From Ignavibacteria bacterium RIFCSPLOWO2_12_FULL_56_21 (GTDB lineage: Bacteria; Bacteroidota; Ignavibacteria; UBA10030), in assembly GCA_001802945.1 (NCBI GenBank), contig MHAK01000121.1, forward strand, positions 1-64,000: a stretch of DNA of 64,000 nucleotides, in the 5' to 3' direction. A program made the translations under genes and the position numbers. This document shows positions 41,107 to 61,928 of this stretch, one piece after another. Numbering within the stretch: the stretch's first letter is position 1; every line of letters begins with the position of its first letter. The notes under the pieces were generated by a model. It was not told where the DNA came from, did not search any database, and saw nothing but the letters and a program-made list of their open reading frames with translations.

Positions 41107-42870
41107 ATGACGACGATCGATTGGATAGTCATCGCCCTGTATTTTGGCGGATTGCTTGGGCTCGCATGGTGGGTCATCAAGCGAGGGAAAGAAACGGCGG
41201 ATGACTATTTTCTCGCCGGCAGAAACCTGGGCTGGTGGGTCGTCGGAGCATCGATCTTTGCCTCGAATATCGGTTCAGAACACCTGGTCGGATTGGCCGG
41301 CGCAGGGGCGACGAGTGGAGTTGCGCTCGCACACTACGAGCTCCACGCATGGTGCCTCCTGGTTCTTGGTTGGGTGCTTATCCCGTTCTACCTGCGGTCA
41401 AAGGTATTCACCATGCCTGAGTTTCTGGAAAAACGATTCTCCGCGACCGCTCGATGGGTCCTGTCGTTAATCTCACTCGTGGCATACGTTCTGACGAAGA
41501 TCGCAGTCGGCATCTTCGCCGGCGGTGTTGTTTTTGGCGCACTCCTGCCCGAGATGCAACTGCAGATCGGCGGCGTCACCTTCGACAGCTTCTGGATCGG
41601 GTCCGTTGCGGTTGTTCTGCTCACCGGATTGTATACCATCCTGGGCGGAATGCGCGCAGTCGCATATACCGAAGCCGTGCAGACATTCATACTTATTCTC
41701 GGTTCTCTTCTGCTCACATTCTTCGGTCTTTCAAAGCTGGGAGGTTGGAATGAATTCCGCGCAGCGCTGGACCCCGAGATGTTCAACCTCTGGAAGCCTC
41801 TCATCCCAACGGGAATGGAAGGTACGTGGTCTCCGGTCATTGAACCGGGCCGGATCGCGTGGTACTTCAACGGCAACTATCCTTGGCTCGGAATGCTGTT
41901 ATGCGCGCCGATCATCGGATTGTGGTACTGGACGACCGATCAATACATCGTCCAGCGCGCGCTCGGTGCACCGAGTGAACGGGAGGCCCGGCGCGGAACG
42001 ATCTTCGCTGCATTCCTGAAGTTGTTCCCGGTCTTCATTTTTATCATTCCCGGAATGATCTGGCTTGCCCTGGCGAAAACGGGGACGATCCCTGAATTTG
42101 TCGCCGGACTCGACGCCAACGGTAATGCCCTGCCGGATGCGTCACAGTCGTCGTTCGCTCTCATGGTCCAATATGTCATGCCCCCGGGTCTGCGCGGCTT
42201 GGTCGTGGCGGGATTGCTCGCCGCGCTCATGAGTTCCCTCGCCGGAGCCTTCAATGCTTGTTCGACGCTCTTTACGATCGATTTCTATCAGAAGCTGCGC
42301 CCCAATGCGACGCAGGCCCAGCTCGTTTGGATCGGACGAATTGCAACCACCATCATGGTCCTGATCGGCCTGATGTGGATCCCGGTCATCCGGGGAGGAC
42401 GAGGTTTGTACGATTACCTGCAGGGTGTGCAAGGATATCTGGCTCCACCGATCTTCGTCGTCTTCTTTTTCGGCGTCTTTATGAAACGATTGAATGCCAA
42501 GGGCTGCCTTTCGGCCCTCACGGTCGGCTTTGCCCTCGGCGTCTTTCGGCTGATCGTCGACACTCCCGTTTCCCTCAAACTTGAGGGGTTCGAAAACGGA
42601 TATGCGCCGGGTTCGCTATTCTGGATCGTCAACAACACCTATTTTCAATACTACAGTCTGTTCATTTTCCTCGTCTCAGTCATAGTCATGATCGTCGTCA
42701 GTTATATGTCTGGGAAACCTTCCGAGGACCAGATCCGCAATCTCACGTTCGCAACGGTGACGACGGAACATCGTCAGGAATCATACGCCAGCTGGAACAT
42801 TTGGGACGTTGTCAATTCCGGCGTAGTTCTGACCCTGATCCTCATCGCTTACGTCTATTTCACCGGATGA
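41107..42870 (+). CDS. Sodium/sugar symporter, SSS family
   Basis: A 587-residue inner-membrane protein with about 14 hydrophobic segments, in line with SGLT-type sodium:solute symporters. Family segments include ADDYFLAGRNLGWWVVGASIFASNIGSEHLVGLAGAGA (residues about 30-68), YTILGGMRAVAYTEAVQ, and LVVAGLLAALMSSLAGAFNACSTLFTIDFYQKL near residue 370. The ATG at 41107 is 10 bases after GGAGG. A xylulokinase gene follows after 24 bases, so a pentose, probably xylose, is the likely substrate. A possible promoter (TTGATT 41023-41028, TATTCT 41047-41052, 18-base spacer) precedes it. Confidence 0.88.
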   Translation: MTTIDWIVIALYFGGLLGLAWWVIKRGKETADDYFLAGRNLGWWVVGASIFASNIGSEHLVGLAGAGATSGVALAHYELHAWCLLVLGWVLIPFYLRSKVFTMPEFLEKRFSATARWVLSLISLVAYVLTKIAVGIFAGGVVFGALLPEMQLQIGGVTFDSFWIGSVAVVLLTGLYTILGGMRAVAYTEAVQTFILILGSLLLTFFGLSKLGGWNEFRAALDPEMFNLWKPLIPTGMEGTWSPVIEPGRIAWYFNGNYPWLGMLLCAPIIGLWYWTTDQYIVQRALGAPSEREARRGTIFAAFLKLFPVFIFIIPGMIWLALAKTGTIPEFVAGLDANGNALPDASQSSFALMVQYVMPPGLRGLVVAGLLAALMSSLAGAFNACSTLFTIDFYQKLRPNATQAQLVWIGRIATTIMVLIGLMWIPVIRGGRGLYDYLQGVQGYLAPPIFVVFFFGVFMKRLNAKGCLSALTVGFALGVFRLIVDTPVSLKLEGFENGYAPGSLFWIVNNTYFQYYSLFIFLVSVIVMIVVSYMSGKPSEDQIRNLTFATVTTEHRQESYASWNIWDVVNSGVVLTLILIAYVYFTG

Positions 42871-42894
42871 CGGACCGTAAAAAAGGCGCCCCTC

Positions 42895-44394
42895 ATGCTG
42901 TCGCTCGGCTTCGATCTCGGAAGTTCCTTCGTCAAGGGCACGGTCCTCGACGTCGCCACCGGCGCGGTTGCAGCGTCCGCCTCCTATCCGAAGGAAGAAA
43001 TGACGATCAATGCGCCCCAACCGGGTTGGGCCGAACAGGACCCCGATTACTGGTGGGAGTGTCTCACGTACGTGACGAGAGACTTACTCTCGAACAGGGG
43101 GGTGCGGAGCCGGGATGTCGGAGCCATCGGCATTTCCTATCAGATGCATGGGCTCGTCGTTACGGATGCCGCCGGCAAGCCTCTGCGGCCGTCGATCATA
43201 TGGTGCGACAGCCGTGCGGTCAGCATCGGCAACAAAGCCTTTCGTGATCTCGGAGAAGAGTATTGTCTTGCCACAATGCTGAATTCTCCGGGCAATTTTA
43301 CCGCCTCAAAATTGCGCTGGGTGCGCGAGCATGAACCCGAAGTATTTCGACGGATCTCTCACGTGTTGTTGCCCGGCGACTATATTGCCTTCAGAATGAC
43401 TGGCAATGCGACCACGACGATCACCGGGCTATCAGAAGGCATCTTCTGGGATTTTCGATCAGGTTCAACTGCGAAACGACTTCTGGAGCACTATGAGATC
43501 GATCCTGCGGTACTGGGCCGCGTAGTGCCGACACTGGGCGAACAAGGGCGTTTGACGCGCGCCGCGGCGGAAGCGCTCGGACTCCAGGAGGGTACTCCGG
43601 TGGCCTACCGTGCCGGCGATCAACCGAACAATGCGCTGTCGCTTAATGTGCTGGAGCCCGGTGAAGTTGCTGCGACAGCAGGAACATCCGGAGTTGTCAA
43701 TGGAGTAACTGACCGGACGAATGCGGATCCATACTCCCGTGTCAACCTCTTCGCACATGTGAATCATGCGACGACTCGTCCGCGACTTGGTATGCTGTTG
43801 TGCGTGAACGGGACCGGAATACTGTACTCATGGTTGCGGCGCGTGGTGGGAGGGTCGATGGGATATACTGAGCTCACTACAGAAGCGGCCGGCGCTGCCG
43901 TGGGTTCCGAGGGAATCGTAGTGCTTCCGTTCGGGAACGGAGCCGAACGAATGCTTGAGAACAAAGAGGTCGGTGCGCGGTTCCTGGGCGTCGATCTTGT
44001 CCGCCACTCACGCGGACATCTCATTCGCGCCGCTCAGGAAGGGATCGCCTTTTCACTTCACTACGGCATGAGGATCATGCGTTCGATGGGAATGGCGGCA
44101 GGTGTCGTCCGGGCGGGCCGTGCGAACCTGTTTCTCAGCCCGATATTCCGTGAGACGCTCGCCAATGTTTCGGGAGCAAGAATCGAACTCTATGATACGG
44201 ACGGTTCTGTAGGTGCGGCGCGGGGAGCGGCGGTAGGAGTTGGCGCCTATGCGGACCTTCGCGACGCCTTCCGCTCGTTGAAGATGCTCGAAGCAGTTGA
44301 TCCTCAGCCGTCTGAGATCGCCGCGACGGCGGAGGCGTACGCGGCGTGGGAGCGGGAATTAGAACGCGTCGGCGTTACGCACACAACCTCGTAA
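42895..44394 (+). CDS. xylB: Xylulokinase
   Basis: A 499-residue FGGY-family kinase that converts D-xylulose to D-xylulose-5-phosphate in the cytosol. Visible motifs are the N-terminal LGFDLGSSFVKGTVLD, GISYQMHGLVV with SIIWCDSRAV, and the stretch AGDQPNNALSLNVLEPGEVAATAGTSG typical of Bacteroidota xylulokinases. It lies 24 bases after the sodium/sugar symporter and convergent to a GH3 beta-xylosidase, which together support xylose use. No xylose isomerase gene is in the window. Other FGGY substrates are less likely given these motifs. Confidence 0.88.
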   Translation: MLSLGFDLGSSFVKGTVLDVATGAVAASASYPKEEMTINAPQPGWAEQDPDYWWECLTYVTRDLLSNRGVRSRDVGAIGISYQMHGLVVTDAAGKPLRPSIIWCDSRAVSIGNKAFRDLGEEYCLATMLNSPGNFTASKLRWVREHEPEVFRRISHVLLPGDYIAFRMTGNATTTITGLSEGIFWDFRSGSTAKRLLEHYEIDPAVLGRVVPTLGEQGRLTRAAAEALGLQEGTPVAYRAGDQPNNALSLNVLEPGEVAATAGTSGVVNGVTDRTNADPYSRVNLFAHVNHATTRPRLGMLLCVNGTGILYSWLRRVVGGSMGYTELTTEAAGAAVGSEGIVVLPFGNGAERMLENKEVGARFLGVDLVRHSRGHLIRAAQEGIAFSLHYGMRIMRSMGMAAGVVRAGRANLFLSPIFRETLANVSGARIELYDTDGSVGAARGAAVGVGAYADLRDAFRSLKMLEAVDPQPSEIAATAEAYAAWERELERVGVTHTTS

Positions 44395-44445
44395 TTGACA
44401 CTCCGATCTTTGCATTTTTCGGAAGGCCCTTCGGTTTAATTCGGG

Positions 44446-47121
44446 TTAATTCTCCATCTCTCCGACGAGTTTCGTCTCTCCCGTCAACCGGAATCGTCCG
44501 GAAACAACCCCCGTTGTCTTCGCATCCCCCCAACCTTTCATGCCGGGTTGCTTTCCTCCAACGGAAACGGTGAATTCGCCCGGTCCCACACTCCGTTTCA
44601 TATCCTTATCGATCACCGACAATTGACGCGGTGTGACCGTAAAACGCACTGTCTTCGTTTCACCAGACTTGAGATGGACGACGTGAAATCCTGCGAGTGA
44701 ACGGATGGGCACGGGTACGGATGCGCCCACATTCGAAATATAAACCTGAGCCACCTCGTCCCCTCCGTACTTTCCTGTATTCTGAATATCAACCGAGACC
44801 TCCACATCACGTCCCGTTGCGATCGTTCTGGCAACGCGAAGATTTGTGTACGTAAACGTCGTATAACTGAGTCCGTGGCCGAACGGAAACAGCGGATCGC
44901 CTTCAAAGTATCGATATGTTCTTCCGCGCATCGAGTATTCAGAGAAGGGAGGAAGTTGGTCGACCGACCCATAAAAAGTTACCGGAAGGCGGCCCGAAGG
45001 ATTCCAATCCCCGAACACCACATCGGCAATCGCCGGACCCGCCGCCTGTCCGGGATACCATGCCTCTACCACGGCCGGGACGTGCTCGGCAGCCCATGCA
45101 ATTGACAACGCACTTCCATTCAGTAGCACAAGGACGACCGGTTTTCCGACGGCAACGACTTCTTTGAGGAGTTCCTCCTGTGCGGAGGGCAATCCGATGT
45201 CAACCCTGTCTCCTCCATGAAATCCGGGAACCTGCACGGGCATTTCCTCCCCCTCGAGTCGGGGAGAGAGTCCGAGCATCATGATGGTGGCATCAGCTTC
45301 CCGGGCGGCCGCCATCGCCTTCTCTTTTTGCAGCGCGTCGGGAACTTGCCAAACAAGCTCAACCACGGCATCGGCGCGCCGGTCTTGGAATTCCACGACG
45401 ATCATGCAAGGGGTACGAGCCTGAAGGGTTACATACTTCCATTGAGTGAGGACGACATGCCTGTCGTTCACTTCTATGACGACGGAGTCGTCCAGGACAA
45501 TCCGGCAGCGGCCGATGGCTCGGGCCCCCAACGCGTACCGTCCGGACACAGGAGGAGCGAGTACTCCGGTCCACCGGACCGAGAAGCTGTCGGCTTGCAC
45601 AGGGCCCGCCGGGGAACCTTCCCACCAATTGAAGCCGATCGTGGAATCGACTCGAGATATGCGCGCCGGTGCGGTGAATGAGTAGTTGTCGAAATACTCT
45701 CCGCGCAGTCCGTTCGTCTCGAGCGTTGACGTCGTGAACAGCGCCGACGCGGGGATCGTCGTGAGAGATGGGGTGTTCTCTGCAACATCGCAACCGGGCG
45801 CGTACATCACGCGCGTTGCAGGAGAGACCTTTCGCCGGATGCCGGCCAGGGGAGTCACAGGATCGGTGGGGGTTCCGTTGTAGTTCCCGAGAAGTGTCTC
45901 AACGTCGTCGGCGTTTGGACCGATAACGGCGATTGCGCGCAAAGACTTGGAGAGCGGAAGGAGGCCGCGGTCGTTCTTCAGCAGTACGATGGATCTTCGT
46001 GCCGCGTCGAGGGCGAGCGCCCGATGGGCCCTGCTGTCATTGACGTCCGCCGGGATGTTCGCATAGGCAACGCGCTCAGGAGGGTCGAACATTCCGAGCT
46101 GAAATCTTGTGCGGAAAAGTCGCTTGACCGAGATATCGACGGATGTATCATCCACGAGTCCGTTGCGTACCGCGACGCCTAGACTGTCGTATGTCACGCC
46201 GCAATTAAGGTCCGTGCCGGCCCGGAGGGCCATCGCAGCCGCGGCAGGAGCGGAAGGCACGACCTTGTGTGTCGAGTAGAAATCCATTATCGCCCAGCAA
46301 TCGGAGACGACATACCCGTCGAAGCCCCATTCATTCCGCAGGATCTTGACGAGGAGCTCATCGCTGGCACAACATGGAAGTCCGCGGAATCTGTTGTACG
46401 CGCACATGACGGATTGTGCGTGTCCTTCGATGATCGACATGCGAAATGCCGGAAGATACGTTTCGCGAAGGTCTCGCTCGTCGACGGCCGCATCGAACAC
46501 GTGACGGTCGGGCTCAGGCCCGCTGTGGACGGCAAAGTGTTTGGGCGTCGCGACCGTCTTGAGGTACTTCGGATCATTCCCCTGTAGTCCTTTGACAAAG
46601 GAAACCGCCAATCGTCCCGCAAGGAATGGGTCCTCTCCATACGTCTCCATGCCCCGGCCCCATCGGGGATCGCGAAAGATGTTGATGTTGGGAGACCAAA
46701 ATGTGAGGCCCTCATAGATTCCGCGGCGTCCTTGTCGTACGGATGCGTGATGTTTCGCCCGGGCCTCGTCGGAAATGACGGTGGCCACTTTGTAGATCAG
46801 ACTCGTATCCCACGTGGCCGCTAGACCAATGGCCTGCGGAAACACTGTCGCACGTCCCGCCCGGGCCACGCCATGCAGCCCTTCGTTCCACCAATTGTAT
46901 GCCGGGATCCCGAGCCTTTCGATAGCGGGGGCGTTGTAGAGCATTTGTCCGGTTTTTTCCTGAAGATTCATGCGGGACACGAGGTCGTCCACGCGCGCTG
47001 AGAGGGGCATGTCCGGATCCCGAAACGGAAAACGTTTCGTTTCGGTGTTCTGCGCACTCAACGGCATTGCGGTTGAGAAGGCCAGAATGGAAAAGGTCAG
47101 CATAGAGCGCATAGGTTTCAC
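44446..47121 (-). CDS. GH3 beta-xylosidase-type glycoside hydrolase with PA14 domain
   Basis: An exported glycoside hydrolase of about 891 residues. A GTG at 47121, seven bases after AGGGA, gives a signal peptide (KPMRSMLTFSILAFSTAMPLSAQ); the ATG at 47112 is the alternative. The GH3 N-terminal domain shows RDPRWGRGMETYGEDP, TPKHFAVHSGPEPDRH and the nucleophile Asp274 in YVVSDCWAI, a form closer to beta-xylosidases than to beta-glucosidases. A PA14 domain (residues about 485-610, GLRGEYFDNYSF to ELVWQVPD) is inserted in the second domain, and a fibronectin-III-like domain ends the chain. It likely trims xylooligosaccharides for the adjacent symporter and kinase. The 51-base gap to xylB has no clear terminator. 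Confidence 0.85.
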   Translation of the reverse strand: MKPMRSMLTFSILAFSTAMPLSAQNTETKRFPFRDPDMPLSARVDDLVSRMNLQEKTGQMLYNAPAIERLGIPAYNWWNEGLHGVARAGRATVFPQAIGLAATWDTSLIYKVATVISDEARAKHHASVRQGRRGIYEGLTFWSPNINIFRDPRWGRGMETYGEDPFLAGRLAVSFVKGLQGNDPKYLKTVATPKHFAVHSGPEPDRHVFDAAVDERDLRETYLPAFRMSIIEGHAQSVMCAYNRFRGLPCCASDELLVKILRNEWGFDGYVVSDCWAIMDFYSTHKVVPSAPAAAAMALRAGTDLNCGVTYDSLGVAVRNGLVDDTSVDISVKRLFRTRFQLGMFDPPERVAYANIPADVNDSRAHRALALDAARRSIVLLKNDRGLLPLSKSLRAIAVIGPNADDVETLLGNYNGTPTDPVTPLAGIRRKVSPATRVMYAPGCDVAENTPSLTTIPASALFTTSTLETNGLRGEYFDNYSFTAPARISRVDSTIGFNWWEGSPAGPVQADSFSVRWTGVLAPPVSGRYALGARAIGRCRIVLDDSVVIEVNDRHVVLTQWKYVTLQARTPCMIVVEFQDRRADAVVELVWQVPDALQKEKAMAAAREADATIMMLGLSPRLEGEEMPVQVPGFHGGDRVDIGLPSAQEELLKEVVAVGKPVVLVLLNGSALSIAWAAEHVPAVVEAWYPGQAAGPAIADVVFGDWNPSGRLPVTFYGSVDQLPPFSEYSMRGRTYRYFEGDPLFPFGHGLSYTTFTYTNLRVARTIATGRDVEVSVDIQNTGKYGGDEVAQVYISNVGASVPVPIRSLAGFHVVHLKSGETKTVRFTVTPRQLSVIDKDMKRSVGPGEFTVSVGGKQPGMKGWGDAKTTGVVSGRFRLTGETKLVGEMEN

Positions 47122-47185
47122 GTGGATGTCCCTGATGACTAATGTATACCCTGGTGTTAACAAAACTTCTCCGGAAATTCTACCC

Positions 47186-47845
47186 ATGTCACTCCTTCGT
47201 GCTCTCCTCTGGACAGTCCTGTTTGCCGTGGCATTTGCCTGGGTAGAAGCGTCTGTCGTCGTATATTTGCGGGACATTTACTATCCCCAGGGATTCTCGT
47301 TCCCCCTTCAATCCCTGTCTGTTTCCAGAGTTCCGATTGAACTCGTCCGTGAGTGTTCGACTCTCGTAATGCTTGCGGCAATCGGTATTCTCGCCGGAAC
47401 AACAAGGTGGCAGAGGTTTGCGTACTTCGCTGTGGCGTTCGGCGTGTGGGACATCTTCTTTTATGTGTGGTTGAAAGTGGCGCTGGATTGGCCTGCTTCG
47501 GTGTTTGACTGGGACATCCTCTTTCTCTTACCGCTTCCGTGGATTGGACCCGTTCTCGCCCCGGTGCTCGTTTCCCTGGGCCTCATTTTCGCAGGCCTGC
47601 TGATACTTCGCCAGGAGCGTGTCATGCCATTCCGTCCGACCGGCCCTGCCTGGATCCTCGGTTCTGCGGGAAGCGTGATCGTCCTGTGGACGTTCATGCA
47701 CGACACAGATGCGACGCTGCACGGATCAATGCCGGCCGCGTATCCCTTTGAGGTCTTCTCCGCAGGCCTGGCATGTTATGCGGCGGCACTGTGGGTTTCG
47801 ATGAAGGGCGCACATAGAAGAATAACGAATGGAAACCCGAAGTAG
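47186..47845 (+). CDS. Integral membrane protein of unknown function
   Basis: A 219-residue protein with about six or seven hydrophobic helices (LLRALLWTVLFAVAFAWVEASVVV, LVMLAAIGILAG, FAYFAVAFGVWDIFFYVW, DILFLLPLPWIGPVLAPVLVSLGLIFAGLLIL, AWILGSAGSVIVLWTFM). The ATG at 47186 is used because upstream codons overlap the divergent GH3 gene region and lack membrane features. Charged pairs in the second loop (LRDIYYPQGFSFPL) and the WDIFFYVWLK segment may be conserved, but no family is recognised. It is divergent from the GH3 gene with about 64 bases between starts. Confidence 0.7.
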   Translation: MSLLRALLWTVLFAVAFAWVEASVVVYLRDIYYPQGFSFPLQSLSVSRVPIELVRECSTLVMLAAIGILAGTTRWQRFAYFAVAFGVWDIFFYVWLKVALDWPASVFDWDILFLLPLPWIGPVLAPVLVSLGLIFAGLLILRQERVMPFRPTGPAWILGSAGSVIVLWTFMHDTDATLHGSMPAAYPFEVFSAGLACYAAALWVSMKGAHRRITNGNPK

Positions 47846-51100: not shown

Positions 51101-52718
51101 ACCGGCGGAAAAGGTTACGGCGCTGATTGCCCGACTGCGGAAGGCCGTGCCGGGGATATCGCTGATCTCTCCGCCGCCGCATCACGACATTTACAGTATT
51201 GAAGACCTCGCACAACTGATCTACGACTTGAAGCAAGTCAATCCGCGGGCGCGGGTGTGTGTGAAGCTCGTTTCCGAAGCGGGTGTGGGAACGATCGCCG
51301 CAGGAGTGGCCAAAGCCTATGCGGACGTCATTCTCATCAGCGGGCACGACGGCGGTACCGGCGCTTCGCCGTTAAGCTCGATCAAAAATGCCGGCTCTCC
51401 ATGGGAACTCGGACTGGCCGAAGCTCAGCAAGTGCTCGTCATGAACGGCCTGCGAGAGCGTGTCATGCTGCGTGTCGACGGCGGCCTCAAGACCGGTCGA
51501 GACATCGTGATAGCGGCCATGTTGGGTGCGGAAGAATTCAATTTCGGCACTGCGGCGCTGATCGCCCTGGGGTGCCGGTATGTTCGGCAGTGTCATCTCA
51601 ACACATGTCCAGTGGGCATTGCGACGCAGGACGAGCGCCTGCGGTCAAAATTTGAGGGGAAACCGGAAATGCTTATCAACTATCTGACTGCCGTGGCGGA
51701 GGACGTTCGGCAGACTCTTGCCGACCTCGGATTCCGGTCGCTGCATGAAGTTGTTGGCCGCACCGATCTCCTGAAGCAGCGCACGATCACCGACCATCCG
51801 AAGGCCAACACCGTGGATCTGGGAGGGATTCTGGCGCGTCGCGACTACGCGCATGAGCAACGCTTCCGGGTCTGGCATCGGAATGACCGCCCCGACCGTC
51901 CCCTGGATATTACGATTCTGCACGATGTTCAGGAGGCCATTCGAGAGAAACGGCATGTGGTCAGGAAATATCGCATACGCAACATCAACCGATCGGTCAG
52001 TTCGCGTCTTTCGGGTGAGATCGCATTTCTTTATGGGGATCGCGGCTTGCCGCCAAAGACAATCGAACTGTGCTTTGAGGGAAGCGCCGGGCAAAGCTTC
52101 GGGGCATTCCTGGTCGAGGGAGTTTCCTTGACATTGGTGGGAGAGGCGAACGATTATGTGGGGAAGGGAATGAGCGGAGGCGAGATCGCAGTCATGACTT
52201 CCGGCACACGGGCCCACGGATCGAGCGAGGTCATCATGGGAAATACCGTTCTATACGGCGCGACAGGCGGCGCATTGTTCGCCTGCGGACGGGCAGGGGA
52301 ACGCTTTGCCGTTCGGAACAGCGGCGCTCTGGCTGTGGTGGAAGGCATCGGTAATCACGGGTGCGAATATATGACGCAAGGAACCGTTGTCATACTTGGA
52401 TCCACCGGGCGCAATTTTGGAGCAGGGATGACGGGTGGCACAGCGTACGTGCTCGACAGCGCGGGCGATTTTGGCCAGAGGATCAATCCGGAGCTTGTCG
52501 AGATCGTAGATCTGGACGAAACCGAAGATGGGGTGCTGCTTCGATCAATTCTCTACCGGCACCTCGTAGCAACCAACAGCGCTGTTGCGCAGCACATCCT
52601 CACGAATTGGAACGAGCACGGGCCAAAGTTTCGAAAAGTGCAGCCAAAATCGCGTGCTGTCGTTCCGCTGGCTGAAACGCTTCGCGGACAGGAAAAGCTA
52701 GTCTCTCCCGCAGCCTGA
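48195..52718 (+). CDS. gltB: Glutamate synthase large (alpha) subunit
   Basis: A 1507-residue cytosolic enzyme that transfers the glutamine amide to 2-oxoglutarate, giving glutamate. The first 16 residues are a short propeptide before Cys17 (HDACGTGFVAK), the expected N-terminal nucleophile of the class II glutaminase domain (about 17-420). The FMN-binding synthase domain (about 830-1190) contains GEGGEDPRRYGTL and SGHDGGTGASPL. The [3Fe-4S] ligands are Cys1127, Cys1133 and Cys1138 in the C-x5-C-x4-C pattern. The C-terminal GXGXG beta-helix domain follows (about 1250-1490). A good CGAGGAG site precedes the ATG. The small subunit gene gltD is not adjacent, so it must be elsewhere, or electrons come from another donor. 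Confidence 0.96.
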   Translation: MNDRFPLYDSRFEHDACGTGFVAKISGAKSHDIIRKAITSVCNLTHRGAVAADTQTGDGAGILSQLPVSFFLKQVPELVARLEAEDELGVGMFFMPGADEDARSLCRALVEHVTSSQGLGLLGWRRVPVDTSVLGESAALTAPLIEQVFVRRPRHISPTSFERTLYACRKEIEKHMLKTEVRSFYVCSFSGRTIIYKGLMIATALDTFFPDLKDEMFTSAFAVYHQRYSTNTFPTWGLAQPFRMLAHNGEINTIQGNRVWTRAREMEIASDAWGEHTKVLQPILQPGGSDSAHLDNALELLSLSGRNVLHAMMMLVPEAWRARTDISQSVMDFYDYNEGFSEPWDGPAALSFSDGAIVGAVLDRNGLRPVRYKITSDGLIALGSEVGALELKDEFVVERGRLEPGQMIAVDTARGVLLRDLDIKEEMASHKPYSAWLRNLKRMPVLTVSDGVDDATSNPKRAPAELAAERTRLQLCFGYSAEELALFFKPMAAGDKVPVGSMGDDASLAILSRFPKLLPSYFRQQFAQVTNPPIDPLRERLVMSLTSKLGYRRNWLGESPEHAKLVELQSPFIFAEDLQHLRSIDDSAFRAVTLQALFPVCEGEEGLEPVLSDLCLRAERAADEGMYLVILSDRGVCEDLAPVPILLAIGAVQNHLLRVGKRLKLSVVAETGEPRDVHHFATLIGYGANAVHPYLAIDTVRAMASSGELGSISSGEACRNFRKSVDSGILKVMSKMGISLLGSYRGSQNFEAVGISSDVVERYFTGTPTRIEGLGLRDIAREALARHERAFGGAVLGLVDEGQYRFRKNGERRAWSPEALRSMQSLRTSGQREEYEHFKKAVSDTAPIGIKDLLTFKKLNNPIPLDDVEEAEEIRRRFTTAAMSLGALSPETHETIAVAMNRIGGKSNSGEGGEDPRRYGTLSNGDSANSAIKQVASARFGVTAEYLANAKELEIKMAQGSKPGEGGQIPAEKVTALIARLRKAVPGISLISPPPHHDIYSIEDLAQLIYDLKQVNPRARVCVKLVSEAGVGTIAAGVAKAYADVILISGHDGGTGASPLSSIKNAGSPWELGLAEAQQVLVMNGLRERVMLRVDGGLKTGRDIVIAAMLGAEEFNFGTAALIALGCRYVRQCHLNTCPVGIATQDERLRSKFEGKPEMLINYLTAVAEDVRQTLADLGFRSLHEVVGRTDLLKQRTITDHPKANTVDLGGILARRDYAHEQRFRVWHRNDRPDRPLDITILHDVQEAIREKRHVVRKYRIRNINRSVSSRLSGEIAFLYGDRGLPPKTIELCFEGSAGQSFGAFLVEGVSLTLVGEANDYVGKGMSGGEIAVMTSGTRAHGSSEVIMGNTVLYGATGGALFACGRAGERFAVRNSGALAVVEGIGNHGCEYMTQGTVVILGSTGRNFGAGMTGGTAYVLDSAGDFGQRINPELVEIVDLDETEDGVLLRSILYRHLVATNSAVAQHILTNWNEHGPKFRKVQPKSRAVVPLAETLRGQEKLVSPAA

Positions 52719-52900
52719 CACTACGCCCCTTGTTTTCCACGACACAGGGCATTTCGGCTCATGTTGTGCAGGGGAACCGAGAGTTTCGCCAGGCTTCAGA
52801 GGGGTTGCAAAGTTAGAGGGGTTCGTTGGAACGCTTTGCTTGGCAAGCTTCCCATATTTGACAATTCCGGAAAAATTAATTCACGACATCAAGATTTAAC

Positions 52901-52929
52901 TTGACAAGCACGATTTCGTACATTAGAAT
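52901..52929 (+). promoter_or_regulatory. Strong sigma70-like promoter of the ROK regulator gene
   Basis: TTGACA (52901-52906) and TAGAAT (52924-52929) are separated by exactly 17 bases. Transcription would start near 52936, inside the palindrome that follows. Confidence 0.78.
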
Positions 52930-52933
52930 TGTA

Positions 52934-52960
52934 TAATTAGTTTGTCAAACAAACTAATTA
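52934..52960. promoter_or_regulatory. Perfect palindromic operator, XylR/ROK type
   Basis: TAATTAGTTTG (52934-52944) and CAAACTAATTA (52950-52960) are perfect 11-base reverse complements around a five-base spacer. The core half-site TTAGTTTG is the same as that of the xylose operators bound by XylR, a ROK repressor of Bacillus (established knowledge). It covers the expected transcription start, so binding would block the promoter. The likely binder is the ROK protein encoded immediately downstream. Confidence 0.78.
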
Positions 52961-53051
52961 GTAATCGTCATTCTTTCTCGAAATTACATACATCGAAGTC
53001 ATGAATTAGTTGTTTTACAAGATTAATCAATAAGTGCGGAGTGAATTCACC

Positions 53052-54263
53052 GTGAAGAAATACAAGCATGAACGCATTACGCGGATCAATTCTCGCGTCG
53101 GCAGGGATATCAATCGCTCCATCATTTTGAACACTGTTCGGCGCAGTCAACCGATCTCACGGACGCAGATCTCCGACCTCACCGGATTGAACAAAAGCTC
53201 TGTGTCCAGCATTGTGGCGAGCCTGATCGAAGAAGATCTCCTCGTCGAAGCAACCGACCGGAGCGGCAGTGTCGGACGCAACCCGGTCAATCTCAGTGTC
53301 CGCCAGGGAAAACACTACGTCGGCGCAATCGCATTCGATGCGCCCCGCACTTTGGTGGCCGCAATCGACATCGACGGAACGGTCAAGGCTCAGGAGGAGG
53401 TCCGAACGGATGTGACCGCACCCGAAGCCCTCGTCGCGAAGTGTCTTTCGCGTCTTGACGGCATTCGGTCCCGTCTCGGTCCGCACCGATTCCACGGCAT
53501 CGGCGCTACCGTTGCAGGCATCGTCGATGCGTCGCAATCTCATGTGATTCATGCGGCGAACCTCGGCTGGAACCATGTCGACCTCGGCGCCGTGATTCGC
53601 GAACGGGCACCCGACCTGGAAATGATCAATGTGGAAAACGACGCCAAGGCCTCGGCCCTTGCCGAGCTGCTCCTCGGACAACATCGTCTGACCTCCACGA
53701 ATCTTGTCTTTCTTTCCCTTGGCGCCGGCATTGGCGCAGGGATCGCAGTCAACGGCCGCATTCTCAGCGGCAGCGCGCATGCCGCGGGTGAGATCGGTCA
53801 TATGACGGTGGTAGACGGCGGTGAGCCGTGTCCGTGTGGAAACACCGGCTGTTGGGAGCTCTTCGCCTCCGAACGGGCGCCGGTGCGATGGTATCTCGCG
53901 GCAAAGAAATCCGCCGTCGAGTCGCATGGGTCGACGACTCTGGCGGACGTCATCGCGGCTGCACGCGCCGGAGACACGGATGCGATCGCGTCGCTCAGGC
54001 AATGGGGTCAACACGTCGGCGTCGGCATCGGCAACGTGATCTGCATGTTCGACCCCGAAGTCGTCATTGTCGGCGGATCGATCACACAGGTCTGGGACCT
54101 GGTCCAGGGGAGCGTGCAAGAGGAAGCTCACGGTCACGGCGATTTCTCGCGACAACGGACTTCAAAGATCCTGCCGACATCGCTCCTCAGCACTCCGGCT
54201 CTTCTTGGAGCAGCGGCGCTCTGTATTCGACGAATCTTTGCCGACTTCAGCATTACGCTGTGA
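53052..54263 (+). CDS. ROK-family transcriptional repressor
   Basis: A 403-residue regulator. Residues about 10-75 form a winged helix (INRSIILNTVRRSQPISRTQISDLTGLNKSSVSSIVASLIEEDL). The rest is a ROK sugar-binding domain with ENDAKASALAELLLG, LGAGIGAGI and the full zinc motif CPCGNTGC near residue 260. GTG at 53052 is chosen because GGAG lies ten bases upstream; GTG at 53034 is the open-frame alternative. It is preceded by a strong promoter and a perfect palindrome, and the TonB receptor starts four bases after its stop, so it probably represses itself and the following chitin genes. The operator resembles XylR sites, but the gene context points to GlcNAc or chitobiose. Confidence 0.88.
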   Translation: MKKYKHERITRINSRVGRDINRSIILNTVRRSQPISRTQISDLTGLNKSSVSSIVASLIEEDLLVEATDRSGSVGRNPVNLSVRQGKHYVGAIAFDAPRTLVAAIDIDGTVKAQEEVRTDVTAPEALVAKCLSRLDGIRSRLGPHRFHGIGATVAGIVDASQSHVIHAANLGWNHVDLGAVIRERAPDLEMINVENDAKASALAELLLGQHRLTSTNLVFLSLGAGIGAGIAVNGRILSGSAHAAGEIGHMTVVDGGEPCPCGNTGCWELFASERAPVRWYLAAKKSAVESHGSTTLADVIAAARAGDTDAIASLRQWGQHVGVGIGNVICMFDPEVVIVGGSITQVWDLVQGSVQEEAHGHGDFSRQRTSKILPTSLLSTPALLGAAALCIRRIFADFSITL

Positions 54264-54267
54264 AATA

Positions 54268-57200
54268 ATGACCAGCCCGGACATCGCGCCACTCATGGAC
54301 AAGTCCCGGATAATGAAATCTGGGCCACGAGGCGCACTCACCGTCTTTTGCGCAGTTGTTGCAATGTCCGCGCAGGCGACCGGTGCTGACCTGCCCGGCG
54401 GAACGTTGTTGTCGAGGGCCGGCGGTTCCGTAGAAGGAATTGTGCGGGATGCCGCGACGCACGAGACGCTTCCGTATGCGAGCGTTGTTCTCGCCGGCAC
54501 AAGCTTTGGCGCAGCCTGTGACGCAGAAGGGAAATATGCCATCCGCAACATTCCGGCGGGCACGTACCAACTGCGTGCATCGTACGTCGGATATCGGCCG
54601 CTGGAGGTGACGATTGATGTGGTCGATGCGGAGAACGCGCGCCGTGACCTGGACCTCGTTTCTGTTGGATTAGAGGGACAGGAAGTTATCGTCACTGGTC
54701 AGGCCAGAGGACAAAAGCACGCGATCAATGAACAGCTCGCGTCGCCACGGATCATGAATGCAGTCTCTTCTTCCCGCATCAAAGAAATGCCGGACGCGAA
54801 CGCGGCAGAATCAGTGGGGCGGCTGCCGGGCGTCTCGATCATTCGCAATGCGGGGGAAGGCACGCAGATCGTCGTTCGTGGTCTCCAACCGAAATACAAC
54901 GCGATTTTGGTCGATGGTGTGCGCCTGGCATCATCGGGGGCCGACGATCGCGGCGCTGACCTGAGCATGATATCGTCGCAGATGCTCGACGGAATTGAAG
55001 TGACAAAAGCGGTGACGCCCGATCAGGATCCCGACGTGCTGGGTGGAACCGTCAATTTCAAGTTGCGGGAGGCGGGGAGGGGAGAGGAAGGATTCCGGCT
55101 GGGCGTAACGTCGCAGGGCGCCTACAACGGTCTTGAGAACGCACCCAACAAATTTAACAATTTCAAGACTATCGCACTGGCCGAAGGGAGATTTCTGGAC
55201 GAGAGTTTCGGAGTGTTTGCGCAGGCGGACATCGAACGCCGCAACCTCACATCAAATGACCTCGGGGCTGCATATACAAATCTCGGTAGCGAGATCCCGA
55301 AATACATCACTCAATCGTTGAACCTCAATCATATACCGCGGGACCGCAGGCGTGTCAACGGAACGGTCGTGATGGATTATCAGCATACGGATGGAAAAGT
55401 GACGCTCTCCAATTTTGGCAGTACCGGCGTCACGGACATCGAAAACCGGGGTGAATCCTACGACGTGGCGAACAACCTCCACAGATATTCCCTTCGGCAT
55501 GAGCGCAGCACATTGAACATCATCACGAATTCATTCGGATTGGAGCATCGTCTGTACGATGTCACGGCGAATCTGAAACTGTCGCATACATACTCGGAGA
55601 CCAAGAATCCCAACGATTGGACGGTGGGCTTTCAGCAGGGTTCTGCGGGACTCGATGCGTTCGTGAATGCTCCGGACATCGATCCCCGGGAGGTGCCGAA
55701 AGCGGCGAATAACGACACGAACGCGACGTATCTCGGGTCCATCGTCACAAACAGCAGTTTCTCTCGTGAGCGCGCGCTGACGGTTTCGCTCGACCTCGAA
55801 ACGAGCGTCAACCTGGCGGAAATCCTAAGCGTCACCTTCAAAACGGGCGGGAAATATCGGCGTCAGACCCGTTCGTACATGTACGACCAGTCCGGCGGCC
55901 AAGGGCTGGGGCTTCAGAGCGCCGTGTTTGTCGACAGTCTGATTGCCTCGCATTTTTCCTCTACTGCGCAGTACGCGAACACCACGAGCATACCGATCGT
56001 CCCGTTCATGGATCCGGCTTTTCAGTATGGCAAGTTCTTGGGTGGCGACTATCCCATGTTCCTTCCCCTCAATTTCGCCATGCTTGCAGAGATGGTGTCC
56101 TACATAAAGAGCCGGTCGGCGCTGCTGGCGCAGCGCGGTGATGTCGCATATTTTCACGACCAGTTCAATTCCACGTCACGGAATTTCTCAGGGAGCGAAG
56201 GCCAGAGCGCGTTCTATATCATGGCGACAATGAACGTGGGGTCCGACCTGACGATCATTCCGGGAGTACGGTATCAACGGCTCTTCACGGCATATACCGC
56301 ACCACGTGGCATTCAAAATACGTCATCCGCACTCGGCGGCACGTATTTTCACTACGATACGACGCTTTCGGTGGGGCACGACTTCTGGCTGCCTGCGTTC
56401 GTCCTGAAATACAAACCGTTCACATGGTGTGACGCCCGTTTTTCGTTCACAAATACCATCGCGTATCCCGATTATCGAGCGATCGTTCCGAGGATCGACA
56501 TTGCCATCGGCGGTGCGATCGCCTGGAACAATTACCAACTCACACCATCGCGGTCGCGCAACTACGACGCATATCTCTCCTTTTATGACAATACCATCGG
56601 TCTTTTTACTGCGGGCGCGTTTCTCAAGCAGATCGACGACCTCATTTATGGCTGGAATTTCTTCGTGACGGGGGCGGATGCACTTCAGTATTACCCGCCC
56701 GGCCTCGCCGCGGGAACGCCCACCGGGGTGTACAATGTCTCGACGTACGTCAATAATCCCTATCGGGTCGACAACTGGGGCATCGAACTCGATTGGCAGA
56801 CACATTTCTGGTATCTCCCCTCGCCGCTAAACGGGCTTGTCCTCAATGTGAATTTCACGCACATCTTTTCCCGTGCAGAATATCCCTATACCGATCGTGT
56901 TCGGGTCGGCCGGACGTTTGTGTACGTCGACACTTCGTTCGTCGACCGGCTCCTTTCACAGCCCGATAATATTGTGAATCTCTCCGTCGGCTATGACTAC
57001 GGCGGATTCTCGCTTCGAGTATCGATGCTTCATCAGGCGGATGTTTTCACGCAGGTCAATTACTGGCCGCAGCTACGGAGTTCCACGGATAAGTATACAC
57101 GATGGGACATGTCCGTCAAACAGGACCTGCCGTGGTTCGGGCTGCAGCTTTTCGGCGACGTGAATAACTTAAATAACGTGAACGACATCAGTCTCCTCCA

Positions 57201-57276
57201 TGCGCCGACGAACGTTCCGCGTTCGCGTCAATCGTACGGCTTGACCGCGGACTTCGGCGTGAGGGTTGTGTGGTAA
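54268..57276 (+). CDS. TonB-dependent receptor of the oligosaccharide-uptake type
   Basis: A 1002-residue outer-membrane receptor. ATG 54268 lies four bases after the repressor stop; an in-frame ATG at 54313 would give a cleaner signal peptide (MKSGPRGALTVFCAVVAMSAQA). A carboxypeptidase-like domain follows (GSVEGIVRDAATHETLPYASV to DLVSVG). The plug has PDANAAESVGRLPGVSIIRNAGEG, VVRGLQPKYNAILVDGVRL and KAVTPDQDPDVLGGTVNF, the pattern of the Caulobacter/Xanthomonas receptors that import oligosaccharides and usually act without a SusD partner. The beta-barrel ends ADFGVRVVW. No susD-like gene is nearby. With GH18 and chitobiose phosphorylase downstream, chitooligosaccharides are the expected cargo. 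Confidence 0.88.
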   Translation: MTSPDIAPLMDKSRIMKSGPRGALTVFCAVVAMSAQATGADLPGGTLLSRAGGSVEGIVRDAATHETLPYASVVLAGTSFGAACDAEGKYAIRNIPAGTYQLRASYVGYRPLEVTIDVVDAENARRDLDLVSVGLEGQEVIVTGQARGQKHAINEQLASPRIMNAVSSSRIKEMPDANAAESVGRLPGVSIIRNAGEGTQIVVRGLQPKYNAILVDGVRLASSGADDRGADLSMISSQMLDGIEVTKAVTPDQDPDVLGGTVNFKLREAGRGEEGFRLGVTSQGAYNGLENAPNKFNNFKTIALAEGRFLDESFGVFAQADIERRNLTSNDLGAAYTNLGSEIPKYITQSLNLNHIPRDRRRVNGTVVMDYQHTDGKVTLSNFGSTGVTDIENRGESYDVANNLHRYSLRHERSTLNIITNSFGLEHRLYDVTANLKLSHTYSETKNPNDWTVGFQQGSAGLDAFVNAPDIDPREVPKAANNDTNATYLGSIVTNSSFSRERALTVSLDLETSVNLAEILSVTFKTGGKYRRQTRSYMYDQSGGQGLGLQSAVFVDSLIASHFSSTAQYANTTSIPIVPFMDPAFQYGKFLGGDYPMFLPLNFAMLAEMVSYIKSRSALLAQRGDVAYFHDQFNSTSRNFSGSEGQSAFYIMATMNVGSDLTIIPGVRYQRLFTAYTAPRGIQNTSSALGGTYFHYDTTLSVGHDFWLPAFVLKYKPFTWCDARFSFTNTIAYPDYRAIVPRIDIAIGGAIAWNNYQLTPSRSRNYDAYLSFYDNTIGLFTAGAFLKQIDDLIYGWNFFVTGADALQYYPPGLAAGTPTGVYNVSTYVNNPYRVDNWGIELDWQTHFWYLPSPLNGLVLNVNFTHIFSRAEYPYTDRVRVGRTFVYVDTSFVDRLLSQPDNIVNLSVGYDYGGFSLRVSMLHQADVFTQVNYWPQLRSSTDKYTRWDMSVKQDLPWFGLQLFGDVNNLNNVNDISLLHAPTNVPRSRQSYGLTADFGVRVVW

Positions 57277-57439
57277 CGGTGGAAGGACGTCAAGTGTACG
57301 CATCACAGAAGCAGCTTGTGAACATGCCAACACTCACACAGGATCCAGGGGGAGAGGAGGTGACATCACGAATTTGTTTTTATCAGAGGTACCACAGCAA
57401 CATGCATCATTCATCCATTCCTTTTTCGGGAGGCGAATT

Positions 57440-59185
57440 ATGAAACAGTCAGTTACCGCAACTGTATGCGTTGCGGTCGCAGCGCTTTTGTTGCTTCCAG
57501 GCGCGACCTTCGCACAAACCCTCGCGGTCTATGCGAACGGGCCGACGCTGGACCAGGTGATCATTGGCGATACACTCGCCAATGGAACCAGGGCGCACAA
57601 CGTATACCAGCTCGTGTCGCGCGACACGACATACCTGTTCGATGCGACCATCACGCTGAGGTCAAATGTGTCGATCATCGGCGTGGCGGACCCGTCGACG
57701 GGACGACTGCCCTGCATTCAACCCGATGTCCTGGGTGACAATTCCATCCCCGGCGTCTTGTTCACGCTCACGGGGTCAGGCACAGAGTATTCGTTCAAGA
57801 ACCTCTATCTCCTCGGCATTTCCATCGACAACACGCCGAATTACGGATCCGGACAGGCAATCCAGGTGACCGGCGACAACATTCGGCTGGCCGTAGACAA
57901 CTGCGTATTCGAACAATGGTCGCAATTCGCCATCGGCTACGCCGGCAATTGGGACAAATTCTTCATCACAAACTGCAAATTCCGCAACATGACGACGCAG
58001 CCGAACCAGTGGTACGTGGGCGAACTTCTGCGGAATGAAAACTATGCCGGTGCTTTCAAGACCGACTCCATTGTCATACGCTACAATACGATGCTCTGCG
58101 TCAGCGGATATGCAACGGCCGCGACAGGCGGGATCGTGAACTACTATGAATTCTCGCACAACAACGTGGTCTACACGTTCAAGAATCCGTTCTTCCTGGA
58201 CAGAATGACAAACGCCAAGTTTAACAACAACCTCTTCTACGGCGCGTACGCAGGCGGACAGACCAAAGCGGAATTCGCTGGGTGGGATTCCTTCACCCCG
58301 AACACCGGACCGTCGATCATCACGATGGGACCCCTGGATTCCACGACGGCGGCGATCCTGCTGGGCCATGCTTCCACGGGTGCCGGCGATCCGGCAGCCG
58401 AGGCTCTCAGGAATGTCGAAGTGAAGAACAACGTCTATTTCTGGCCATCCGGACTCACGTCATTCTGGACGGCTTGGAACGACACCGCACACATCGATTC
58501 GGTCTACACGCCGACATGGATGAATGCTCCCACCGCCAACATGTTCGCGACCAGCGCACAATGGCCCGGTTTCGTGGATCTGGGCAATCTGAACGTCGAC
58601 CCCGGTTTTGGAGCTTCCATCCCGGGAGCTTTGAATGCCGGCACAGCCAACGCCAACGGTGTCGGACTGCTGAACTGGTTCACGGCGGTCCGAACGGGCA
58701 CAGGGGTGACGGAAACGTACGGATACAAGATCACACAGGTTGGGACAGCGGAAAACTGGACCCCCATCTGGCCTCTTCCGGAAACGCAGGATATGAAGTA
58801 CACGAACGCCTCCCTGCTGACCGGCGGCACCGACGGACGTCCTATCGGCGATCCATATTGGTTCAACGGACCTAACGGCGGCCCAACGGGCGTCGAACTT
58901 CCGACCGATGCAGTCCCCGGCACGTTCGCGTTGTTAGCGGCATATCCGAATCCGTTCAACCCTGCCACGCATCTCAGCTATTCGCTCCCTGCGACCGGCA
59001 GCGTCAACCTGAAGGTCTACAACATCCTCGGTCAGGTCGTCGCAACGCTGGTCAACGGTGAGATCCAATCGGCTGGCACACATGCGGTCGTGGTAGACAT
59101 GGCCGGAAGGAGCTCGGGCCTCTACATAGCCGTGCTCGAGCAGGGAAACAGTCGCGCCATGCAGAAACTGGTGTTCGTGAAGTGA
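57440..59185 (+). CDS. Secreted beta-helix protein with T9SS sorting domain
   Basis: A 581-residue exported protein. The ATG at 57440 follows CGGGAGG and starts a clear signal peptide (MKQSVTATVCVAVAALLLLPGATFAQ). Residues about 60-340 show repeated short strands and Asn-rich turns (FKNLYLLGISIDN, IRLAVDNCVFEQWS, FFITNCKFRNM, VEVKNNVYFW) typical of a right-handed parallel beta-helix, the fold of many polysaccharide lyases and binding proteins. The end, YPNPFNPATHLSY to MQKLVFVK, is a T9SS signal. No catalytic residues of a known lyase are evident. In the chitin locus it may bind the polymer or glycans associated with it. The 163-base gap upstream shows nothing else. Confidence 0.75.
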   Translation: MKQSVTATVCVAVAALLLLPGATFAQTLAVYANGPTLDQVIIGDTLANGTRAHNVYQLVSRDTTYLFDATITLRSNVSIIGVADPSTGRLPCIQPDVLGDNSIPGVLFTLTGSGTEYSFKNLYLLGISIDNTPNYGSGQAIQVTGDNIRLAVDNCVFEQWSQFAIGYAGNWDKFFITNCKFRNMTTQPNQWYVGELLRNENYAGAFKTDSIVIRYNTMLCVSGYATAATGGIVNYYEFSHNNVVYTFKNPFFLDRMTNAKFNNNLFYGAYAGGQTKAEFAGWDSFTPNTGPSIITMGPLDSTTAAILLGHASTGAGDPAAEALRNVEVKNNVYFWPSGLTSFWTAWNDTAHIDSVYTPTWMNAPTANMFATSAQWPGFVDLGNLNVDPGFGASIPGALNAGTANANGVGLLNWFTAVRTGTGVTETYGYKITQVGTAENWTPIWPLPETQDMKYTNASLLTGGTDGRPIGDPYWFNGPNGGPTGVELPTDAVPGTFALLAAYPNPFNPATHLSYSLPATGSVNLKVYNILGQVVATLVNGEIQSAGTHAVVVDMAGRSSGLYIAVLEQGNSRAMQKLVFVK

Positions 59186-59390
59186 TCAACCGGGAACCCT
59201 GGGAGAATGCGGCAGCCGTCTGCACCTCCCCGTGTTCTCTGCAACACCGCCCGTCGTTCGCCTGCGCGGAACGCCCTTTGCGCAGGCGGGCACGGGTGCA
59301 TCTCTACAGCCGCATCTTGGCTCTCCTTCTCTGGAGAAGCTTTCCCTGGTCATACGCCTGCAGGGCCTCACACCAACGCCTCCGAACCCG

Positions 59391-60671
59391 ATGACTGCGA
59401 CGCCGCCACGCACTTCGCATCCCTCACTGTGGGTGCCGTCGTTGTATTTTGCCGAAGGGCTCCCGTTCGTGGCGATCGCAACGGTCTCGGTACTCATGTA
59501 CAAAGACCTCGGGATCTCCGACGCCGAAATCGCCTTTTATACGACTCTCGTTACCTGGCCGTGGACATTGAAGCCGTTATGGGGACCGCTCCTCGAAATG
59601 TTCAAAACGAAGCGGTATTTCGTCATCGCGACCCAATTCGCCGGCGCCGCAGCGTTTGGCCTTATCGCATTCTCGCTTCCGCTCGAGGGTTTCTTCCCGT
59701 ATACGCTGGCTTTGTTGGCGATCCTTGCCTTTAACTCGGCTACGCATGACATCGCCGCCGACGGCGTATATGTGAATGTACTCTCGGAGCCCGAGCAAGC
59801 GCGATTCGTGGGGTGGCAGGGGGCGTGCTACAACATCGCCAAGATCACGGCTCAGGGAGCGCTCGTGTATCTCGCCGGTTCGCTCCAACACGACTATGGG
59901 GTACTTCATGCGTGGATGATCGTCATGGCTGTCTTCGGCGTTGTCATGTTTCTGCTCGCCCTGTGGCACGCACGATTTCTTCCGTCTGGAGGCGCAGCAA
60001 CCCGTGTCTCCACGGCGGGTGAGGCGCTCAGCACATTTCGCGACGTTGTCCGGACATTTGTTCAGAAGAAGTTCATTTGGTGGGGAATCGCGTTCATCGT
60101 GCTCTACAGGTTCGCCGAGGGGCAAGCGATCAAGATCGTCCCTTTGTTCTTTCGGGCGGCGCGCGAGTCGGGAGGTCTCGGACTTTCGACTGCGGAGATC
60201 GGCGTCATATACGGAACATTTGGAGCGGGGGCGTTCATCCTGGGTTCCATACTGGCCGGGTACTTTACTGCGCGGCGCGGCCTTCGCCGATCGCTTTTCG
60301 TGCTCTGTTGTTTCTTCAATATCCCGTTCGCCGCATATGCCTTCCTGGCCGCCATGCAGCCGGAAAGCTACATCGTCATTAGCGCCGCCGTCGTATTCGA
60401 ATACTTCGGATACGGTTTTGGGTTTGTCGGGCTGATCCTCTACATGATGCAGCAGATCGCGCCCGGCCCGTACAAAATGGCTCATTACGCATTCGCCACG
60501 GGCGTCATGTACCTGGGATTCATGATTCCCTCGATGCTGAGCGGCTTCATCAGCGATTTTCTCGGCTACCGCATCTTCTTCCTTTGGGTTATGATCGCTA
60601 CGATCCCTTCATTCCTCGTCGCCTGGTATGTGCCTTTCAAACAGTCCGAGAACGCCGAGGTGGCAGCATGA
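59391..60671 (+). CDS. AmpG-like MFS permease (PAT family)
   Basis: A 426-residue inner-membrane transporter with about 12 helices. The N-terminal pattern LYFAEGLPFVAIATVSVLMYKDLGISDAEIAFYTTLVTWPWTLKPLWGPLLE matches AmpG and its relatives, which import GlcNAc-containing muropeptide disaccharides by proton symport. The ATG at 59391 is used; the open frame extends upstream to 59232 without membrane character, and the 205-base gap before it holds nothing recognisable. The chitinase gene overlaps its stop (ATGA). Sitting between a chitinase and a TonB receptor, it is a good candidate for the importer of chitobiose or related GlcNAc disaccharides. Confidence 0.8.
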   Translation: MTATPPRTSHPSLWVPSLYFAEGLPFVAIATVSVLMYKDLGISDAEIAFYTTLVTWPWTLKPLWGPLLEMFKTKRYFVIATQFAGAAAFGLIAFSLPLEGFFPYTLALLAILAFNSATHDIAADGVYVNVLSEPEQARFVGWQGACYNIAKITAQGALVYLAGSLQHDYGVLHAWMIVMAVFGVVMFLLALWHARFLPSGGAATRVSTAGEALSTFRDVVRTFVQKKFIWWGIAFIVLYRFAEGQAIKIVPLFFRAARESGGLGLSTAEIGVIYGTFGAGAFILGSILAGYFTARRGLRRSLFVLCCFFNIPFAAYAFLAAMQPESYIVISAAVVFEYFGYGFGFVGLILYMMQQIAPGPYKMAHYAFATGVMYLGFMIPSMLSGFISDFLGYRIFFLWVMIATIPSFLVAWYVPFKQSENAEVAA

Positions 60672-61888
60672 AGGTGTTCAGCTCAACGGGTTTCCGAACA
60701 GTCGTGCAACGAATGCGCTTCCTGTATCTTGGTCTCTTGATCTTCGGGTCGCTGCAGGGACAGGGAAGGGAAGTCATCGGCTACTATCCTTCGTGGAAAT
60801 GGCGGTCCGGCAATGCATGGTTGTCGCCGGAAAACATACCCTACGAAAAGCTCACGATGATCAATTACGCCTTCTTCTCTCCGGCGCCCGACGGCAACCT
60901 GACAGGCGTCGATACCGTCGGAGATGCGATTATCCTACGGGGAGAAGCGGTCGGTGGACCCATTCCGAGGGCAAAGTCTAAAGGTCTTATCGAATACGCA
61001 CACTCCTTCAGCGTCAGAGTCGTTCTCTCCATCGGCGGATGGGGAGATTCCGGCAATTTTTCAGCAGTGGCTTCGAGTGAAGCGGGACGACGCGCGTTCG
61101 CCCGATCCTGCGTTGACGCGATCAGAAGATTCAAATTCGACGGCATCGACGTTGATTGGGAATATCCGACGTATGCTCCGCACAATGGAAAGCCGGAGGA
61201 CACGGAGAATTGTCTGAGGTTATTCCGGACTCTCCGTGATAGTCTGGATGCGTACGAGGACCGCGTCGGAAGGCCTATTCTCCTGACCGCTGCGATTCCC
61301 GCGACCGACATGCATGCGTCCGGGTTCAACATGCCGGCGCTGGCTCCTCTCCTGGACTACGTCAACGTCATGACATACGATTTCTATGGATCGTTGGACC
61401 CGATCAGCGGTCACAATGCCGCGTTATTCGGAACGTGCGGGGGCGACAGCACCAGGAGTGTCGATGCTTCGTTGAGATTGTTTACGGAACACTACGGCAT
61501 TCCGGCGTCCAAAATCACCTTGGGCATCCCGTTCTACGGCAAGACCTTCGCGATCTGCGGTGGTCCGTGCTCGCCATACGGCCGGGCCGATTCGGCGACG
61601 TCTTCCGTGAGGTCAATTGAGTATGCTGCCATCGATGGTACCATGCGTGGATTCTTACGCTCGTGGGACAATGTCGCACAGGTGCCGTTTGCCGTCGACA
61701 CGACGCGCAATATATTTCTCACCTATGACGACGAATATTCCGTCGCATTGAAAGCGGAGTATGTGATCAACCACGGGGTGGCTGGCGTGATCATTTGGGA
61801 GATCACCGGCGACCAGCTTGGGCAAGGAAAAAGTCCTCTGCTCGACGCGCTCGCCTCCCGGCTCCTGAGGGCGAGGACGCCAAAGTAA
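60668..61888 (+). CDS. GH18 chitinase
   Basis: A 406-residue exported glycoside hydrolase. Signal peptide residues about 15-32 (RMRFLYLGLLIFGSLQGQG). The GH18 barrel begins EVIGYYPSWKW; SIGGWGDSGNF (residues 121-131) is the strand-3 motif; and the catalytic DGIDVDWE is at 158-165 with Glu165 as the acid. MTYDFYG (near 234) supplies the substrate-assisting Tyr region, and VIIWEITGD closes the barrel. It hydrolyses chitin or chitooligosaccharides to GlcNAc disaccharides. Its start overlaps the AmpG-like gene stop by four bases, so the two are co-translated. No carbohydrate-binding module is visible. Confidence 0.92.
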   Translation: MKVFSSTGFRTVVQRMRFLYLGLLIFGSLQGQGREVIGYYPSWKWRSGNAWLSPENIPYEKLTMINYAFFSPAPDGNLTGVDTVGDAIILRGEAVGGPIPRAKSKGLIEYAHSFSVRVVLSIGGWGDSGNFSAVASSEAGRRAFARSCVDAIRRFKFDGIDVDWEYPTYAPHNGKPEDTENCLRLFRTLRDSLDAYEDRVGRPILLTAAIPATDMHASGFNMPALAPLLDYVNVMTYDFYGSLDPISGHNAALFGTCGGDSTRSVDASLRLFTEHYGIPASKITLGIPFYGKTFAICGGPCSPYGRADSATSSVRSIEYAAIDGTMRGFLRSWDNVAQVPFAVDTTRNIFLTYDDEYSVALKAEYVINHGVAGVIIWEITGDQLGQGKSPLLDALASRLLRARTPK

Positions 61889-61928
61889 GTCATGTACACT
61901 CGACGCCCGATCTAACAACGAAGGACCT

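Follow-up and report, generated by a model that had tools for sequence, protein, structure and literature searches.

A perfect palindrome carrying the half-sites of Bacillus XylR operators lies at a promoter ahead of chitin-related genes in Ignavibacteria bacterium RIFCSPLOWO2_12_FULL_56_21. This raises the question of which regulator would read the site, and whether xylose or chitin use would be controlled from it. Our analysis indicates that the palindrome, here called O1, is very probably the operator of the adjacent ROK protein, which would act as an autorepressor of the chitin operon and be relieved by a chitin sugar. The window referred to throughout is the whole stretch of 64,000 nucleotides that was analysed, and the argument draws on the following features.

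41074 to 47277: xylose-type module (SSF transporter, XylB-like kinase, GH3 beta-xylosidase)
52901 to 52929, plus strand: promoter TTGACA-17-TAGAAT, 11 of 12 matches, best in the region
52934 to 52960, no strand: O1, 27-bp perfect palindrome over the predicted +1, with the core TTAGTT-N9-AACTAA at 52937-52957
53006 to 53026, plus strand: O2, weaker putative second site with the sequence TTAGTT-N9-GATTAA, which agrees with the core at 10 of 12 bases and lies 46 bp ahead of the start codon
53052 to 54263, plus strand: ROK-family regulator gene (PF00480, 1.9e-50; N-terminal winged-helix matches), GTG start
54268 to 57276, plus strand: TonB-dependent receptor with CarboxypepD_reg-like and Plug domains; its ortholog follows the ROK gene in relatives
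57434 to 59185, plus strand: beta-helix-like protein with T9SS sorting tail, kept in the operon of relatives
59391 to 60671, plus strand: AmpG-like MFS transporter, 63-67% identical in the operon of relatives
60668 to 61888, plus strand: GH18 chitinase (PF00704, 1.6e-67)
61929 to 64000, plus strand: GH94 chitobiose phosphorylase, continuing to contig position 64325; best PDB match 1v7v

O1 (TAATTAGTTTGTCAAACAAACTAATTA) consists of perfect 12-bp arms around a 3-bp centre (TAATTAGTTTGT / CAA / ACAAACTAATTA). The preliminary description had placed the 27-base palindrome at these positions and had recognised the perfection of its arms, but had made them one base too short. O1 is the sole perfect inverted repeat in the 64-kb window with arms of at least 10 bp and a loop of at most 10, and 3000 simulated versions of the 333-bp intergenic region produced no arms of 12. 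Because an arm of 12 appeared somewhere in the 64 kb in 2 of 12 whole-window simulations, the significance of O1 comes from its position and conservation and not from its length alone. With regard to position, the hexamers TTGACA (52901-52906) and TAGAAT (52924-52929), separated by a 17-bp spacer, form the best promoter match within 52600-62100. O1 begins 4 bp past the -10 hexamer and therefore covers the predicted +1, as had been claimed for it, and its 3′ end lies 91 bp ahead of the ROK GTG. TTGACA is found unaltered in 16 of 24 homologue loci, in each case with TANNNT after a 17-bp spacing and with the operator 4-13 bp beyond.

The gene behind O1 encodes a protein with a ROK domain (172.5 bits, cut-off 22.9) and an N-terminal winged helix-turn-helix, which is matched by HTH_IclR at 22.5 bits (cut-off 22) and by MarR_2 at 25.9 bits, just below the cut-off of 27. 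Its start at 53052 was picked by alignment to orthologs, with 53034 as the alternative, and the protein can be aligned with ROK regulators in the PDB from residue 13 on. The ROK zinc motif CxCGxxGCxE and the ExGH motif appear as CPCGNTGCWE and EIGH, with a core that is invariant in orthologs. A second ROK-domain protein is encoded at 1157-2374, near the start of the window.

The gene set headed by the ROK gene is a predicted chitin/chitobiose operon. Its GH18 chitinase and GH94 chitobiose phosphorylase agree with the chitin-related genes described earlier downstream of the palindrome, and in the PDB the GH94 enzyme matches the chitobiose phosphorylase 1v7v at 1165 bits, the next entry scoring 545. 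In four relatives (G018, G004, G045 and G040) the ROK ortholog is followed by this set in a largely unchanged order, with one member missing in some, and other relatives carry parts of it downstream of the ROK ortholog. The orthologs in G004 and G018 are among the closest, and both genomes belong to the family of the window genome. The beta-helix-like protein with the T9SS tail is 45-74% identical in the chitin operons of several relatives. A ROK-family sugar kinase gene lies directly 3′ of the regulator at five loci (L040:6018-7211, L042:8247-9260, L043:9326-10345, L051:7493-8497 and L052:5159-6181); the window operon is without this kinase gene that several relatives carry. Of 98 genomes of the order, 16 have a close ortholog of the regulator, and the sole other genome of the same genus examined has none; this patchy distribution suggests loss or transfer of the chitin operon.

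O1 is conserved together with the regulator gene. Phylogenetic footprinting covered 24 ROK homologues of the host's class, including that of the window, to which the others are 38-66% identical. In 20 of the 24, the 200 bp upstream contain the core TTWGTT-N9-AACWAA with no more than one mismatch, against 0.7 expected from shuffled sequence, and four homologues are without it at that threshold. The most frequent spacing of half-sites is N9, and N5, N13 and N17 are enriched as well, in steps of four, because the half-sites recur every 4 bp. In the first ten ortholog genomes, the 25-bp pattern (at most three mismatches) was found solely before the ROK gene, in 7 of 10, indicating that the site accompanies the regulator and acts on a single operon. 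Between convergent genes in G036 there is another perfect core (C73:17048), which was taken as chance or a terminator hairpin, and perfect cores in G009 (C7 and C15), fewer than in the reversed-pattern control, were taken as chance. In a homologue from another family of the class (L163), TTAGTTTGTTTGGGCAACCAACAAA, which is near the 25-bp operator of Bacillus xylR, lies about 148 bp before the ROK start.

The half-sites TTAGTTTG and CAAACTAA are common to O1 and the Bacillus XylR operators, whereas the spacing of the whole site is not. An operator of 25 bp is found in the majority of orthologs and in true Bacillus xylR genes, and it can be read as two 21-bp N9 cores shifted by 4 bp, as in TTAGTTTGTTTAAACAACAAACTAA from G031 and TTAGTTTGTTGCCCAAACAAACTAA from Bacillus spizizenii (genes identified by NCBIfam), where both cores are without mismatch. 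O1 has one perfect 21-bp core, and the registers 4 bp to either side carry only cores with two and three mismatches. The predicted window operator is thus a single-core variant and not the Bacillus operator itself, so that the earlier equation of TTAGTTTG with the XylR half-site stands for the half-site and fails for the site as a whole (21 bp here, 25 bp there). Given that its core spacing is unlike that of most orthologs, its binding mode could differ. Single-core sites are also present in L052, L057, L161/L162 and L164. The two-core reading of the 25-bp XylR operator agrees with the title of a paper by Dahl et al. In addition, the core given as GTTT-N7-AAAC in PMC9104551 agrees with the N9 two-core reading. 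The Paenibacillus polymyxa XylR site tested by EMSA in that study, ACTTAGTTTAAGCAATAGACAAAGT, holds one core, TTAGTT-N9-GACAAA, in a 21-bp register as read in the present analysis, and in this it resembles the window. Unlike O1, it is an imperfect palindrome and belongs to a xylose operon.

A start-codon-proximal N9 core with no more than one mismatch recurs in 6 of the first 10 orthologs (G031, G018, G045, G027, G009 and G040) and was found again in L156, L157, L159 and L163. Over ten loci the summed mismatches of this site fall below every one of 2000 shuffles. The corresponding O2 in the window has two core mismatches and, taken alone, a shuffle P of about 0.05; the candidacy of this copy rests mainly on its conserved position. 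Looping between O1 and O2 was considered by helical phasing, and as the core distances range from 69 to 97 bp with no constant phase, it is not claimed.

Bacillus XylR resembles the window regulator in being a ROK protein with an operator near the promoter and a nearly identical recognition helix (TGLNKS-S/T-VSS), which reads TGLNKSSVSS in the window protein and TGLNKSTVSS in Bacillus. The two differ in the rest of the system. Bacillus XylR has a 25-bp tandem operator and xylA/xylB neighbours, while the window has a 21-bp single core, chitin genes and a different sugar-site motif (ENDAKASA, as opposed to ENEANAGA in XylR). Compared with L066, a Bacillus XylR beside xylA/xylB, the window protein is 58% identical in the HTH and 27% in the sensor domain. 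The true xylR loci L066 and L054 adjoin xylose isomerase and xylulokinase genes (xylA and xylB), in place of which the window has the chitin operon. In a quick tree, the window protein falls into an Ignavibacteria-centred clade with support of 99, apart from Firmicutes XylR. Outside this clade and its near relatives, most best matches among the matches listed are Firmicutes ROK proteins, in a scan that was seeded with two sensor-domain motifs and may miss closer relatives elsewhere.

One proposal of the preliminary description was that the regulator links xylan and chitin genes, and a regulator that coordinates the use of both, or responds to xylose, would accord with the XylR-type half-sites in O1 and with the xylose-type module upstream. 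This module ends at 47277, about 5.7 kb from the palindrome (5.8 kb had been given), with another ORF and gltB between. However, no core with at most two mismatches was found in the module. In addition, no second copy of O1 at up to three mismatches is present in the 3.36-Mb genome, which is 95% complete. Elsewhere in that genome there are five one-mismatch core matches, fewer than the 18 for a reversed-pattern control. The relatives share the operator and the chitin genes, the neighbouring genes that were examined around their operons include none for xylose use, and the window sensor motif is unlike that of XylR. We therefore regard a role in xylose use as highly improbable, and the proposed link between xylan and chitin genes is not borne out. 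The ROK protein would accordingly be a local regulator of one chitin operon. The genome scan, which had been suggested as a way to find copies before unrelated genes, returned none and leaves the operator reading in place.

Other explanations concern what happens at O1 itself. ROK proteins can activate as well, as some regulators of the family do, and the adjacent protein might accordingly activate rather than repress the chitin operon; O1, however, lies over +1 right after a near-consensus -10, and similarly close in relatives, which fits blocking of RNA polymerase, and activation is unlikely. The genome encodes four ROK-domain proteins, from which it might be supposed that another regulator, for example another of these, binds O1. 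Yet the site is linked to this ROK gene and its orthologs across families and is found nowhere else in the genome, making a different binding protein very unlikely. There is hardly any room for O1 as an RNA hairpin, a terminator or a chance repeat. Although any transcribed palindrome can fold into a hairpin, the leader folds no better than shuffled sequence (z 0.04); the stem is AT-rich, has no T tract and is not listed as terminator-like; a chance repeat is at odds with the intergenic simulations above; and what orthologs conserve is the half-site sequence with its 4-bp register, not merely self-complementarity.

An operator read by the adjacent ROK repressor is thus the preferred explanation, and by analogy, the ROK protein most likely represses its own operon at +1 until chitobiose or GlcNAc relieves the block. 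We infer binding, repression rather than activation, the nature of the inducer and the part played by O2, as follows. Without inducer, a ROK dimer would sit on TTAGTT-N9-AACTAA across the transcription start and block RNA polymerase, and O2 near the start codon would probably strengthen repression. As chitin is degraded, chitobiose or GlcNAc would be bound by the ROK domain and the repressor released; either sugar may be the inducer, as both fit the sequence equally. With the repressor off, the operon of ROK regulator, TonB receptor, T9SS protein, MFS transporter, GH18 and GH94 would be expressed. The regulator would then be a local autoregulator whose DNA-reading part is of XylR type and whose sensor and targets are those of chitin use. 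E. coli NagC, which senses amino-sugar metabolism, and Mlc share the ROK family and fold; against their NCBIfam equivalogs, the window protein scores 153 against 650 and 131 against 530, far under the cut-offs. A likeness in function is offered by Thermotoga maritima ChiR, described in PMC3750489 as a ROK regulator that controls a chitobiose operon from one site and is released by chitobiose. The T. maritima operon comprises an ABC transporter, a chitobiose hydrolase and nagAB, whereas the window operon has TonB, MFS and GH94 phosphorolysis.

The reading first given to this locus, a ROK operator with XylR-type half-sites at a promoter before chitin genes, is upheld here and extended by its conservation in orthologs. 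The accompanying idea that the ROK site was kept while the inducer changed is favoured by the conserved HTH, the diverged sensor, the chitin operon and the half-site shared with xylR. Since every step follows established ROK biology, the result is only moderately surprising. Both the ladder of half-sites (N5, N9, N13 and N17) and the occurrence of single-core operators are relevant to the architecture of the 25-bp XylR operator. It is possible, and we suggest it tentatively, that a distinct ROK clade of Ignavibacteria and relatives senses a chitin sugar and yet has kept XylR DNA specificity across phylum-level distance, and that its operators switch between tandem and single-core forms, retuning how many dimers bind and how tight repression is. 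The locus would be a clear example of a repressor that has kept its DNA-reading half across phyla while its sugar-sensing half and its targets changed, and it offers a chitin regulator of one operon that lends itself to testing, in a class where experiments on regulation are few.
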